Below are positions 3,309 through 21,005 of a DNA stretch of 38,712 nucleotides, piece by piece. The position numbers were made by a program, and so were the translations under genes. The notes beneath the pieces were generated by a model, which saw only the letters and a list, made by a program, of their open reading frames with translations, did not search any database and was not told the origin of the DNA. The stretch is from Chloroflexota bacterium. Lineage in GTDB: Bacteria; Chloroflexota; Dehalococcoidia; UBA2979. The stretch's first letter is position 1. Each line of letters starts with the position of its first letter. The stretch covers positions 1 to 38,712 of the forward strand of contig CANIRU010000009.1 of NCBI GenBank assembly GCA_947470025.1. Reading direction: 5' to 3'.

Positions 3309-4238
3309 ATGGTATCGATTCCGGCGATCCAGACCGCACACCTCGGCAAGCGATATAGCGGCAGTGTCCGCGCGCTCGCCGACGTGGACCTGACGGTCCC
3401 CGCCGGCACCGTGTTCGGGCTGCTCGGCCAGAACGGCGCGGGCAAGACCACCCTGATCCGCATCCTCCTCGACATGATCCGGCCGACCGAGGGACGCGCG
3501 TCCATCCTCGGCTTCGACTGCCAGGACGATGGTGTCGAGGCGCGCACGCACGTCGGCTACCTCCCGTCCAGCGCGCAGTACTACTCCTACATGACTGGTC
3601 AGGACATGTTCGAGTTCGCCGCGCGCACGCGAGGGATCACGCCGGACGCGGCGTTGCTGGATGACCTGACGCAGCGGCTCGATCTCAACCCGGACCGCCC
3701 GATCCGTACACTATCGCGCGGCAACCAGCAGAAGGTCGGGTTGATCGCCGCGCTCCTCGCGCAACCGGAGGTCGTGATCCTCGACGAGCCGACGTCGGGG
3801 CTCGACCCGCTGATGCAGGACGTGGTGCTCGACATCGTGCGCGAGGTCGCGGCGCAGGGGCGCACGGTGTTCTTCTCGTCGCACATCCTGAGTGAGGTGG
3901 AGCGGGTCTGCGATCACGTCGCGGTGCTGCGCGGGGGGCTCCTCGTCGGGTCGTTCGACCTCGCTGAGCAGCGCCGGCTGGCAGCGCGACGCGTCACCGT
4001 GCAGTTCGCCGAGATGCCACCCCCGAGCGCGTTCGCGGGCATGGCCGGATCGCGCTACCTCGGCGTTGAGGACGGGCGCGCGGTGTTCGAGGTCACGGAT
4101 GGCTTCGACACCCTGCTCAAGCACATCGCCGCGTTCACGGTCGTCGATGTCGAGGCGCACGAACCGACGCTGGAGGATTTCTTCCTGTCGCTGTACACGG
4201 ACGAGCCTGAGCAGCCGGTCGCGGGAGGAGCGGCATAG
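3309..4238 (+). CDS. ABC transporter ATP-binding protein (exporter type)
   Basis: 309 residues: the cytosolic ATPase that powers the permease encoded directly downstream. Walker A GQNGAGKTT is at residues 40-48, the ABC signature LSRGNQQ at 135-141, Walker B VVILDEP at 155-161 and the switch His192 in SSHILSEVE. The usual Q-loop Gln region reads YLPSSAQ, so the canonical Gln is replaced or shifted. The length and the C-terminal extension of about 90 residues (ending EDFFLSLY) are typical of DrrA/CcmA-like drug or lipid exporters. The stop codon abuts the ATG of the permease at 4239, so the two are translationally linked. The substrate is unknown; drug, lipid or peptide export are all possible. 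Confidence 0.94.
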   Translation: MVSIPAIQTAHLGKRYSGSVRALADVDLTVPAGTVFGLLGQNGAGKTTLIRILLDMIRPTEGRASILGFDCQDDGVEARTHVGYLPSSAQYYSYMTGQDMFEFAARTRGITPDAALLDDLTQRLDLNPDRPIRTLSRGNQQKVGLIAALLAQPEVVILDEPTSGLDPLMQDVVLDIVREVAAQGRTVFFSSHILSEVERVCDHVAVLRGGLLVGSFDLAEQRRLAARRVTVQFAEMPPPSAFAGMAGSRYLGVEDGRAVFEVTDGFDTLLKHIAAFTVVDVEAHEPTLEDFFLSLYTDEPEQPVAGGAA

Positions 4239-5750
4239 ATGGTGCTGCTCACGCAGATGCTCTATCGCCTGCGCGTCCAGGTGATCGCGTACGGCCTTGG
4301 CCTGGCGCTGTGGGCCGCGATCGAGGTCTTCCTGTATCCGTCGCTCGAATCGTCGCTCGGCGAGCTCGATTACCCCGAGGCCATCCTCGACGCGTTCGGG
4401 ATACAGGGCACCAGTTTGGCGGACCCGCGCGGGTTCCTCGGAGCGGAATTCTTCTCGCTCGGGCCGCTCGTGCTGGGGGCGTTTGTGGTCGCGGCCTCCA
4501 CCGCCGCGCTGGCGGGCGAAGAGTCGTCCGGGACTATGGAGATGCTCGCCGCGTTCCCGGTCGGTCGCACGCGGATGTTCATTCAGAAGGCCGCTGCGGT
4601 GCTGATCGCCACGCTGGGCGTCGCCGCGATCACCTCGATCGGGTGGGCGGTGAGCGTCCCGTTCGTCGACATGGGGCGTGAGCTGACGCTGCTTGACCTG
4701 GTGGGGGCCACGTTCCAGCAGGTGTCGTTCGCCTCGTTCGTGATCGCGCTCGGGCTGTTCTTCGGTGCGATCGCGCCATCGCGCGGGACGGCGGCCGCCT
4801 GTACGGGCGGGGTGCTGGTGGTGGCCTACCTCCTGGTCGCGATCGCCTCCAGCGTGGACTCGGTCGAGAACCTGAAGTACGCCAGCCCGTACTACTACTC
4901 TGACCTCTCGGGCGTGCTGATCGACGGGGTCGAACTGCGGCACCAGCTCGTGCTCTGGTCGGCGACGGCGACCCTCGGTCTCCTCGCACTCGTGGCCTTC
5001 GAGGGGCGCGAGTTCAACGCGGAGCGCTGGCAGTTCGGCGCGCTGATGCCTCGCGGAGGGACGGATATCGAGATGACAAGCACGAATGCTGAGCCCGGTC
5101 GTGTACCGCGGAGATCGCGGCGCGGCCTGAGCAGCGGCGTGCGCTGGCTGATCTTCCTCGTGCTGCTCGCCGGTCTCGCGGCGGGCGGTGTCTATGCGTA
5201 TCGCTATGCAGCGTCGCTGCCGCCAGTCGTGGCGATCAGCGGCCGCGTGGACGCACCCAGCGTCGTGATCCTCGCGCCCACGAGCGGCGTTGTCTCGACG
5301 CTCACGGCGGTCGAGGGACAGCAGGTGCGGCAGGGCGATCTCCTCGGCTGGATGGAGAACACGCTCGACAAGACGCAGGTGCCGGTCACCACGCCGCACA
5401 GCGGGCGCATCACCACGCTCTCGCTGCACCAGGGACAGTTCGCCACGGCGGGCACGCCCGTGGTCGTCATCCACGACCTCACGCAGCTCCACGTGCTGCT
5501 CGAGGTCGACGAGGACGACATCGGGCGGGTGGCAGTGGGGCAGCCGGTAGCGCTCTCGTTCAGCTCGCTCGGTCTGCGCATCACCGGCGCGGTTGGCTCG
5601 GTCGCCACGCTCCCCACGGCGAACCCCGCGGCCCGGCCGGGCCAGAGCCGTAAGTACGAGGTGAAGGTCCCGCTGGACGCGGTGGACCCGCGCGTGATCG
5701 TCGGGCTCCCGGTGGACGCGCGGATCGCTGTCGGCGTGGCCCGGCAGTAG
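4239..5750 (+). CDS. ABC-2 type permease continuing in frame into a HlyD-like membrane-fusion (lipoyl) domain
   Basis: 503 residues with two modules. Residues 1-260 form an ABC-2 permease with about six membrane spans (near 12-33, 74-95, 114-140, 155-178, 185-206, 236-255). A basic linker (RRSRRG at 291-296) leads to a seventh span at about 302-324. Residues 330-503 form an adaptor domain: two lipoyl half-motifs around APTSGVVSTLTAVEGQQVRQG and TTPHSGRITTLSLHQGQ, then a beta-barrel (VLLEVDEDDIGRVAVGQPV). There is no long coiled-coil hairpin between the lipoyl halves. The positive linker fits a cytosolic location, placing the adaptor outside the membrane. An internal ATG at 5073 (Met279) has GGAGGG 12 bases upstream, so a separate adaptor might also be made. 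The gene directly follows its ATPase. The fusion is seen directly; its transport role is inferred. Confidence 0.88.
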   Translation: MVLLTQMLYRLRVQVIAYGLGLALWAAIEVFLYPSLESSLGELDYPEAILDAFGIQGTSLADPRGFLGAEFFSLGPLVLGAFVVAASTAALAGEESSGTMEMLAAFPVGRTRMFIQKAAAVLIATLGVAAITSIGWAVSVPFVDMGRELTLLDLVGATFQQVSFASFVIALGLFFGAIAPSRGTAAACTGGVLVVAYLLVAIASSVDSVENLKYASPYYYSDLSGVLIDGVELRHQLVLWSATATLGLLALVAFEGREFNAERWQFGALMPRGGTDIEMTSTNAEPGRVPRRSRRGLSSGVRWLIFLVLLAGLAAGGVYAYRYAASLPPVVAISGRVDAPSVVILAPTSGVVSTLTAVEGQQVRQGDLLGWMENTLDKTQVPVTTPHSGRITTLSLHQGQFATAGTPVVVIHDLTQLHVLLEVDEDDIGRVAVGQPVALSFSSLGLRITGAVGSVATLPTANPAARPGQSRKYEVKVPLDAVDPRVIVGLPVDARIAVGVARQ

Positions 5751-18816: not shown

Positions 18817-19524
18817 ATGTACCGCAGGCTGCCCTGGTGGATCCTGGTGACCTGGGCGGTGCTTGTCGCCGCGGCGGTGCCGCTGCTGCTCTGGGGGCTC
18901 CAGACCGGTGTGCGCTACGCGTACGACCGCACGAACTACGTCTTCGCCAGCACCGCGTCCGTCTCGGGCGATCTCGTGACCGTGGCGTCCGTGAACGCCG
19001 GCCGCGTGGCGGCGATCCGCACGACCACCGGCGCGAAGGTGCGCGAAGGCGACTCGCTCGCCGAGATCGAGATGGCCGCGCCCGTCCGCACCACCTCGGG
19101 CGGCACGTCCGTGCTCGCATTCCTCGGGTCGACCGACCAGCAGGTGGCGACGACCGCTCCGGTCGATGGCGTGGTCGCATCGGTGATGGTGACGGAGGGC
19201 TCGGCCGTGACCGCGGGCCAGTCGATCGTGCGGCTCATCGATCCGAAGCATCTGCGCGTGACCGCGTACGTGTCCGAGGCAAACGTCGCCTACGTCCGCT
19301 CAGGGCAAGAGGCCGAGGTCTATCTCACCGCTCTCGACCGGACGCTGCGTGGCGTGGTGCAGGCCGTGGCGCCTGCGACCTCGGGAGCGTTTGCGACACC
19401 GGCCGCGTCCGGCGCTGACGCGAAGCCGCCGAGCCCTGTCTTTCCCGTGTTCGTCCGCATCGATCTGAGCGACTACCCGCAGTTGCTCGGGAGCACCGCC
19501 GAGGTGCGGATCCGCGTCCGATGA
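18817..19524 (+). CDS. Short membrane-anchored HlyD-like adaptor without coiled-coil hairpin
   Basis: 235 residues. One N-terminal membrane span at about 7-30 (WWILVTWAVLVAAAVPLLLWGL) precedes two lipoyl half-motifs (ASVNAGRVAAIRTTTGAKVREG and TAPVDGVVASVMVTEGSAVTAG) and a beta-barrel part (LRVTAYVSEANVAYVRSGQEAEV). Only a linker of about 40 residues stands between the lipoyl halves where standard adaptors carry a long helical hairpin. AAGGAG lies four bases before the ATG. The last four bases overlap the start of the MFS gene (ATGA), so the adaptor and exporter are made together. The arrangement is analogous to EmrA/EmrB, but the adaptor is reduced and the MFS is not a 14-span EmrB. The substrate is unknown. 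Confidence 0.87.
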   Translation: MYRRLPWWILVTWAVLVAAAVPLLLWGLQTGVRYAYDRTNYVFASTASVSGDLVTVASVNAGRVAAIRTTTGAKVREGDSLAEIEMAAPVRTTSGGTSVLAFLGSTDQQVATTAPVDGVVASVMVTEGSAVTAGQSIVRLIDPKHLRVTAYVSEANVAYVRSGQEAEVYLTALDRTLRGVVQAVAPATSGAFATPAASGADAKPPSPVFPVFVRIDLSDYPQLLGSTAEVRIRVR

Positions 19525-21005
19525 CCCCGCAGCCGCCCCCGGGATCGCGGCGCGAGCCGCTGATCACCCACGGGCGGCTGGCCACGATCGTCGCGGCGCT
19601 CTTCGGCATCATCGCCGTCCTGATCATCGAAGGCGTGCCGGCGCAGCACATCGTGCCGCTGGTGATCGGGCTCGCGCTGATCGTGGCGTTCATGGTCGTC
19701 ACCGGGCTGCGCGACGTGCGTGCCGCCTCGGCGGCGCTCCCGTCCATCGAGGAGACTGGCGAGTGGAATGCGCCGGTGAAGGGCTGGCTGCACACCACGT
19801 TCGGCGCTCTCGAGGACGTGAACTTCCGGCGCCTGTACCTCGGCAACCTCGCGCAGTTCGGCTCGATGCAAATGCAGCAGGTCGTACGCGGGTACCTGGT
19901 GTTCCACCTCACCGGGTCGTTCGCGCTGCTGGGGACGATGGCGCTGGCGAATGCCGTGCCATCGGTGCTCGTCTCGCCGATCGGCGGCGTCGTGGCCGAC
20001 CGCGCGACGAAGAAGACCGTGATCCAGATCGCGCAGGGCTACAATGCGATCAACGCCGCGCTGCTCGCGATCGTCGCCGCCGGGTGGTTCGGCCTCGAGC
20101 TCCAGTTCTGGCACCTGTTCCTGAGCTCGTTCCTGCAAGGCGTCGTGAACTCCATCATGCAGCCGTCGCGACAGGCGATGATCTCCGACCTCGTGCCCCG
20201 CGAGCGGCTGATGAACGCGATCGGCATCAACTCGTCGGGGCAGACGCTCATGCAGCTCGTCGGTCCTGGGATGGCGGGCTTCCTGATCGCCGTGCTCAGC
20301 CCGTCCGTCGTCTTCGCCGTCATGGGCGCGATGTACGCGATCGCGATGCTGTATACGATGGGCCTGCCGCGCGTCCCGCTGTACTCGTTCACGCGACGCG
20401 TCCGAGGCAATGGCCTCGCGGACCTCGTCGAGGGCTTCCGCTACCTCAGCCGCGACCGCACGATCCGAATGGTCCTGGGCGTGAACTTCCTCATCGTCAC
20501 GGTGTCGCTGCCGTACACGCAGCTCCTGCCGGGCTTCGTCGCCGCCGTGCTGCACGAGGGGCCGTTCCGCCTCGGCATCCTGCAGAGCATCCAGGGGGTG
20601 GGCGCGCTCATCGGCGCGGTGTTCGTCGCGTCGGCGCCGTCGAAGGGACGCGGGCGGCTGCTGCTGGGCACCGGCGCGCTGCTCGGCGTCGCGATCGTCG
20701 GGTTCTCCATCTCCACGATCTACTGGATCACGCTGCCGATCATGGTCGTCCTCGGCTTCGCGCAGGCTGGGCGCATGGCGATCGGGCAGGTGCTGATCCA
20801 GGAGTACTCCGAGGAGGAGTACCGCGGCCGCGTCGCCGCCGTCTGGTTCATGCAGTTCGGCCTGGTGCAGTTCGGCACGTTCGTCGTCGGGTTCCTCGCG
20901 AGCATCCTCGGCCCGCAGCTCGCGATCGGCGGGCTGGCGGCGCTGCTCATGCTCAGCATGGGCCTCACCGCGCTGCTCAGCCCGACGATGCGCAACCTCG
21001 AGTAG
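19521..21005 (+). CDS. MFS exporter (DHA3/EntS-like) with two extra N-terminal membrane spans
   Basis: 494 residues. Residues 20-65 form two additional spans (LATIVAALFGIIAVLIIEGV and IVPLVIGLALIVAFMVVTGL) before a standard 12-span MFS_3 core that starts near NFRRLYLGNLAQFGSMQMQQVV. The loop-2 motif GGVVADRATKK is at about 155-165, and the SRQAMISDLVPRERLMNAIGINS segment is typical of enterobactin-exporter-like DHA3 members. The ATG overlaps the adaptor stop by four bases, which strongly suggests a joint export complex. The extra spans could serve as a docking site for the adaptor; this is inference. It ends just before the convergent aquaporin gene. Confidence 0.92.
   Translation: MTPQPPPGSRREPLITHGRLATIVAALFGIIAVLIIEGVPAQHIVPLVIGLALIVAFMVVTGLRDVRAASAALPSIEETGEWNAPVKGWLHTTFGALEDVNFRRLYLGNLAQFGSMQMQQVVRGYLVFHLTGSFALLGTMALANAVPSVLVSPIGGVVADRATKKTVIQIAQGYNAINAALLAIVAAGWFGLELQFWHLFLSSFLQGVVNSIMQPSRQAMISDLVPRERLMNAIGINSSGQTLMQLVGPGMAGFLIAVLSPSVVFAVMGAMYAIAMLYTMGLPRVPLYSFTRRVRGNGLADLVEGFRYLSRDRTIRMVLGVNFLIVTVSLPYTQLLPGFVAAVLHEGPFRLGILQSIQGVGALIGAVFVASAPSKGRGRLLLGTGALLGVAIVGFSISTIYWITLPIMVVLGFAQAGRMAIGQVLIQEYSEEEYRGRVAAVWFMQFGLVQFGTFVVGFLASILGPQLAIGGLAALLMLSMGLTALLSPTMRNLE

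Follow-up and report, generated by a model that had tools for sequence, protein, structure and literature searches.

A Recurrent Fusion of an ABC-2 Permease to a Hairpin-Less HlyD-Family Adaptor in Dehalococcoidia

One gene in a Dehalococcoidia contig (CANIRU010000009.1; the window, that is, the whole stretch analysed, is 38,712 nucleotides long) joins an ABC-2 permease to an HlyD-family adaptor (4239-5750, +). The locus raises the question of whether these two modules are really made as one protein and, if so, what a permease-bound adaptor would do in bacteria whose fusion carriers appear to lack an outer membrane.

Architecture of the Fused Gene

The fused gene begins with an ATG and stays open over all of its 503 codons, with both Pfam families on the single chain, in agreement with the one uninterrupted frame reported by the first-pass annotation; the gene recurs at four further loci (L002-L005). 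Directly upstream lies a gene (3309-4238, +) for an ABC ATPase of 309 aa (Pfam ABC_tran, E 2.8e-26), the stop codon of which (4236-4238) abuts the ATG of the fusion at 4239. This ATPase carries Walker A (GQNGAGKTT), signature (LSRGNQ), and Walker B (VVILDEP) motifs, as is proper to the linked ATPase of an ABC transporter, and its best NCBIfam match is the drrA subfamily, with a score under the cut-off of that model. On the strand opposite the operon, an open frame of 593 aa (3711-5492, -) is probably a by-product of high G+C.

Residues 1-255 (4239-5003, +) form a NosY-like ABC-2 permease domain (PF12679) with six membrane helices and an above-cut-off match to ABC2_membrane_2 (residues 49-220, E 3.2e-12, 46.7 bits against a cut-off of 27.2). 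The sole PDB match in the permease profile search was NosY (7o0y, E 1.6e-6), and Pfam gave no MacB/FtsX match in the fused permease, which is thus not of the MacAB-TolC type. The permease is followed by a basic, fast-evolving linker (RVPRRSRRG; residues 256-298, 5004-5132, +), which has the lowest identity of all regions, and by a seventh membrane span predicted to run from inside to outside (residues 299-326, 5133-5216, +; by hydropathy, 300-318). The adaptor half consists of a lipoyl, or barrel-sandwich, domain (residues 330-412, 5226-5474, +) and a beta-barrel domain (residues 418-497, 5490-5729, +), and it matches the family profiles HlyD_3 (E 9.9e-17; residues 383-480), HlyD_D23, and Biotin_lipoyl within residues 346-480.

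The AlphaFold2 model (mean pLDDT 90.5, pTM 0.73), which was built from a 40-row alignment as a monomer and is silent on assembly, predicts six long helices for the permease, then a linker of low confidence (about 271-300) and a helix at 299-326, followed by lipoyl strands at 330-412 with no coiled-coil insert and by the barrel at 418-497. Foldseek with this model placed BesA (4kkt, E 2.5e-10) at the top, and MacA and ZneB next. Both the alignment and the model place only a short turn between the lipoyl halves, so the adaptor does lack a coiled-coil hairpin, as had been noticed from the sequence; the "two lipoyl halves" described at the same time are both present, but they form one barrel-sandwich domain. 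We also considered a biotin/lipoyl carrier domain and rejected it, because the position of the modifiable lysine at the turn is not conserved (only P0001 and P0002 have Lys there, whereas P0003-P0005 have D or G).

Recurrence and Selection

The 503-residue protein, the search of which had been proposed by the first-pass annotation as a check on recurrence, was found as a full-length fusion in four further MAGs at 46-69% identity among 60 relatives, namely G001 (CANKAU01), G004 (CAIXBH01), G021 (CADEHD01), and G006 (JADLFF01). When 84,980 species were scanned by pattern, the same four full-length matches came back, all of them Chloroflexi/Dehalococcoidia MAGs from four projects; every fusion sequence is MAG-derived. 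Each of the four nearest homologues is a fusion, so the splitting of all close homologues into two genes, which was named beforehand as fatal to the fusion, is not what is seen, and an adjacent split version of permease and adaptor was found neither in the 60 relatives, nor in ~393 genomes of the class, nor, within the limits of its pattern, in the scan of 84,980 species. The ATPase gene also lies 5' of the fusion in G001, G004, and G006 (partial there), while the contig of G021 stops at the fusion. Since the other neighboring genes vary between genera, the context holds no clue to the substrate.

The copies in the five MAGs share the same junction, and no stop or frameshift is present in their linkers. 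In two close pairs, dN/dS was 0.19-0.30 for the permease and 0.27-0.32 for the adaptor, and among distant members the adaptor half has changed more quickly than the permease half. The fused permeases are monophyletic in the permease tree (support 100/100). The fusion is therefore real, conserved, and under purifying selection on both halves, and, because it recurs in four separate MAGs under such selection, it is not a chance product or an assembly accident. About 20 other relatives encode the ATPase and the permease alone with no fused adaptor, indicating that the adaptor is dispensable for the permease as such. A plasmid search gave partial matches only, and no described ABC-2-HlyD fusion was found in a limited search of the open-access literature. 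The fusion is built from known families and is in that respect only modestly surprising; its stability is the unusual part.

Two other open frames in the phylum were considered as further stable fusions and rejected. G631 (L106 1169-3655, +) joins an MFS transporter to a hairpin-less adaptor in one frame of 829 aa, and G451 (L107 1666-3363, -) joins an ABC ATPase, a membrane span, and an adaptor in one frame beside a MacB/FtsX-like permease. Nearly all of their close relatives have separate adaptors of 220-290 aa, so these two are recent or erroneous singletons, which illustrate by contrast a fusion that has not been conserved.

The adaptor profile search yielded three more fused proteins (G057, G106, and G120) from other families of the class, in which the adaptor is C-terminal to a second type of permease adjoining an ABC ATPase. 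The two permease types have no detectable sequence similarity (hhalign probability 0.1), the second matches no Pfam permease family, and relatives of the second are found as pairs of permeases in tandem. Its model was of moderate quality (pLDDT 84), and Foldseek gave no support for an ABC-2 fold, the best 50 matches all being to the adaptor. In the adaptor tree, all eight fused adaptors group together and apart from the free ones (98/95), which puts one adaptor lineage on two different permeases; these may have arisen by two fusions or by a permease swap. That the same lineage occurs on two permeases without detectable similarity suggests a benefit of tethering as such. The second-type fusion of G057 (L065 8848-10846, +) contains a frame change, and stops interrupt the accompanying ATPase, reflecting either a pseudogene or sequencing error.

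A Candidate Internal Start at the Junction

Within the linker, a candidate internal ribosome-binding site, GGAGGG (5055-5060, +; duplex energy -9.8 kcal/mol), precedes an in-frame ATG (Met279; 5073-5075, +), the candidate start of a free adaptor of 225 aa. Both elements had been pointed out as raising the option of two products from one gene, and both are present; the option is strengthened by an equivalent in-frame ATG behind a strong SD sequence in G001, G021, and G006, that is, in 4/5 of the first-type fusions. The duplex energies in the four members are -9.8 (window), -9.5, -11.0, and -10.6 kcal/mol. Of 624 internal ATGs, 0.2-1.1% have a site of such strength (window, 1.0%), and three of the four members have a stronger SD at the internal site than at the start of the gene itself. 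The in-frame ATG follows at 3-12 nt; in the window the gap is 12 nt, longer than ideal. When the preceding residues were recoded synonymously with the codon usage of each genome, equally strong sites arose with P values of 0.02 (window), 0.05, 0.017, and 0.038. The window case, which prompted this test, is itself counted among the four, and the four members make up two related pairs and are thus not independent. No strong ATG site was found near the junction in G004 or in the three second-type fusions.

These features of the nucleotide sequence are suggestive of a second, free adaptor product in some copies. Internal initiation giving a short C-terminal product is described elsewhere, for instance for SpaO (PMC13059759).

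Proposed Mechanism and Relation to Known Systems

Dehalococcoidia are described as monoderm (PMC10284905), and neither OEP/TolC (PF02321) nor Omp85 was matched in the source genome, which is 80% complete, in keeping with the envelope without TolC assumed by the first-pass annotation. The OEP family is absent at the curated cut-off from 43/44 genomes of the family, so that the usual work of an HlyD-family protein with an outer-membrane channel finds no counterpart here, and these data fit an adaptor that does not need to reach an outer channel. The one OEP match in this otherwise OEP-free family (G029:C125 3381-4553, +) is either contamination or an acquisition.

We consider it probable that the fusion and its ATPase form an exporter or envelope machine driven by ATP, in which an extracytoplasmic collar is tethered to the permease. 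The genes at 3309-5750 would give an ABC-2 transporter built from two copies each of ATPase and permease, a predicted dimer, and the seventh span of each permease would hold its hairpin-less adaptor on the outer face, with the basic linker facing in and the adaptor facing out in the predicted topology. ATP-driven movements of the permease could then be passed to the lipoyl/barrel collar, which would guide or gate the released substrate, or else hold an extracytoplasmic partner; gating or guiding is inferred by analogy with the MacA and BesA families. Tethering would fix a 1:1 ratio and make assembly obligatory where no outer-membrane channel need be reached.

MacA, YknX, and Spr0693 form hexameric rings (PMC8277102), which makes it puzzling that each dimer should have two tethered adaptors. 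The product of the internal start, which is likely to add free adaptor in most members, could hypothetically solve this puzzle by completing a ring of more than two around the two tethered copies. In its full form, with one gene giving two products by conserved internal initiation and with tethered and free adaptors building a mixed ring on an ABC-2 dimer in a single-membrane cell, so that a two-fold transporter is reconciled with an adaptor ring of higher order, we put this idea forward only tentatively.

Other readings of the locus deserve weighing against the tethered-collar exporter. The same parts might transmit force as in NosDFY or FtsEX, ATP hydrolysis moving the tethered domain onto a partner at the surface or wall while nothing crosses the membrane. 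NosY is the closest solved relative of the permease by profile, no substrate gene is linked to the locus, and the adaptor is covalently attached, all of which would suit such a machine; we nevertheless regard it as rather unlikely, because the studied members of the adaptor's family serve exporters and no gene for an extracytoplasmic partner such as NosD adjoins the fusion. An artefact joining two neighboring genes during assembly or sequencing is barely credible: single-genome fusions such as G631 and G451, with split close relatives, do exist in the phylum, but the shared, unbroken junction of five MAGs, the selection on both sides of it, and the failure to find an adjacent split pair all speak against it.

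The junction itself can be read in two further ways. SD-like codons there might only slow the ribosome and so aid membrane insertion between spans 6 and 7, with no second product. The position just after the sixth span is a plausible pausing point, but pausing needs no ATG, and yet an in-frame ATG lies within 3-12 nt in four members, so we give this reading about the same small chance as force transmission. More doubtful still is a locus that works in effect as two overlapping genes, the permease and the free Met279 adaptor being the main products and the continuous frame a minor read-on. It would account for the strong SD and ATG in 4/5 members and for the internal SD that surpasses the gene's own start in three of those four, but no member has a stop after the permease, so every ribosome starting from Met1 makes the fusion, and G004 and all three second-type fusions are without a strong internal ATG site.

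Why bacteria believed to be without an outer membrane have adaptors has been discussed but is unsettled (PMC4446572). In the tethered-collar exporter, a covalent tether fixes the hairpin-less adaptor to its transporter, so that a role on the outer face becomes testable by cutting one gene, and through the possible internal start the adaptor-to-transporter ratio could be tested simply.

The hairpin-less adaptor noted at the outset is present in the fusion but is not peculiar to it, since both the class and the phylum Chloroflexota commonly have free adaptors of ~220-290 aa without a hairpin, and BesA is a published example (PMC4446572). The window itself holds a split pair (18817-21005, +) in which a free hairpin-less HlyD adaptor of 235 aa overlaps the beginning of a gene for an MFS_3 transporter. 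The top Foldseek match, BesA of Borrelia burgdorferi (PDB 4KKS-4KKU), is a separate protein that serves an RND pump with the outer-membrane partner BesC (PMC4446572). With HlyD/MacA-type adaptors in general the fusion shares the membrane anchor, the lipoyl and beta-barrel domains, the PF13437 and PF16576 matches, and MacA, ZneB, and BesA as profile and fold matches, but it differs from them in having no alpha-hairpin, in its attachment to the C-terminus of a permease, and in a genome where no TolC-type channel was found. Like NosFY and other ABC-2 systems (PF12679), it has a six-span permease adjoining a separate ATPase gene, whereas NosY has no adaptor domain and the fusion adds a seventh span and an outer module. 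Operons like YbhG-YbhFSR likewise pair an ABC-2 exporter with an HlyD-family adaptor, but as a separate gene; in the same genome, contig C1 has one such operon (L068 6805-8633, -), where a free hairpin-less adaptor with a lipoprotein-like LMSTGC signal accompanies an ABC-2 permease and the upstream gene looks like a TetR regulator. YknX and Spr0693, of Gram-positive MacB-type pumps, are adaptors that also work without an outer membrane, but their partners are FtsX/MacB-type permeases, they assemble as hexamers (PMC8277102), and YknX, unlike the fused adaptor, has a prominent hairpin (PMC4446572).
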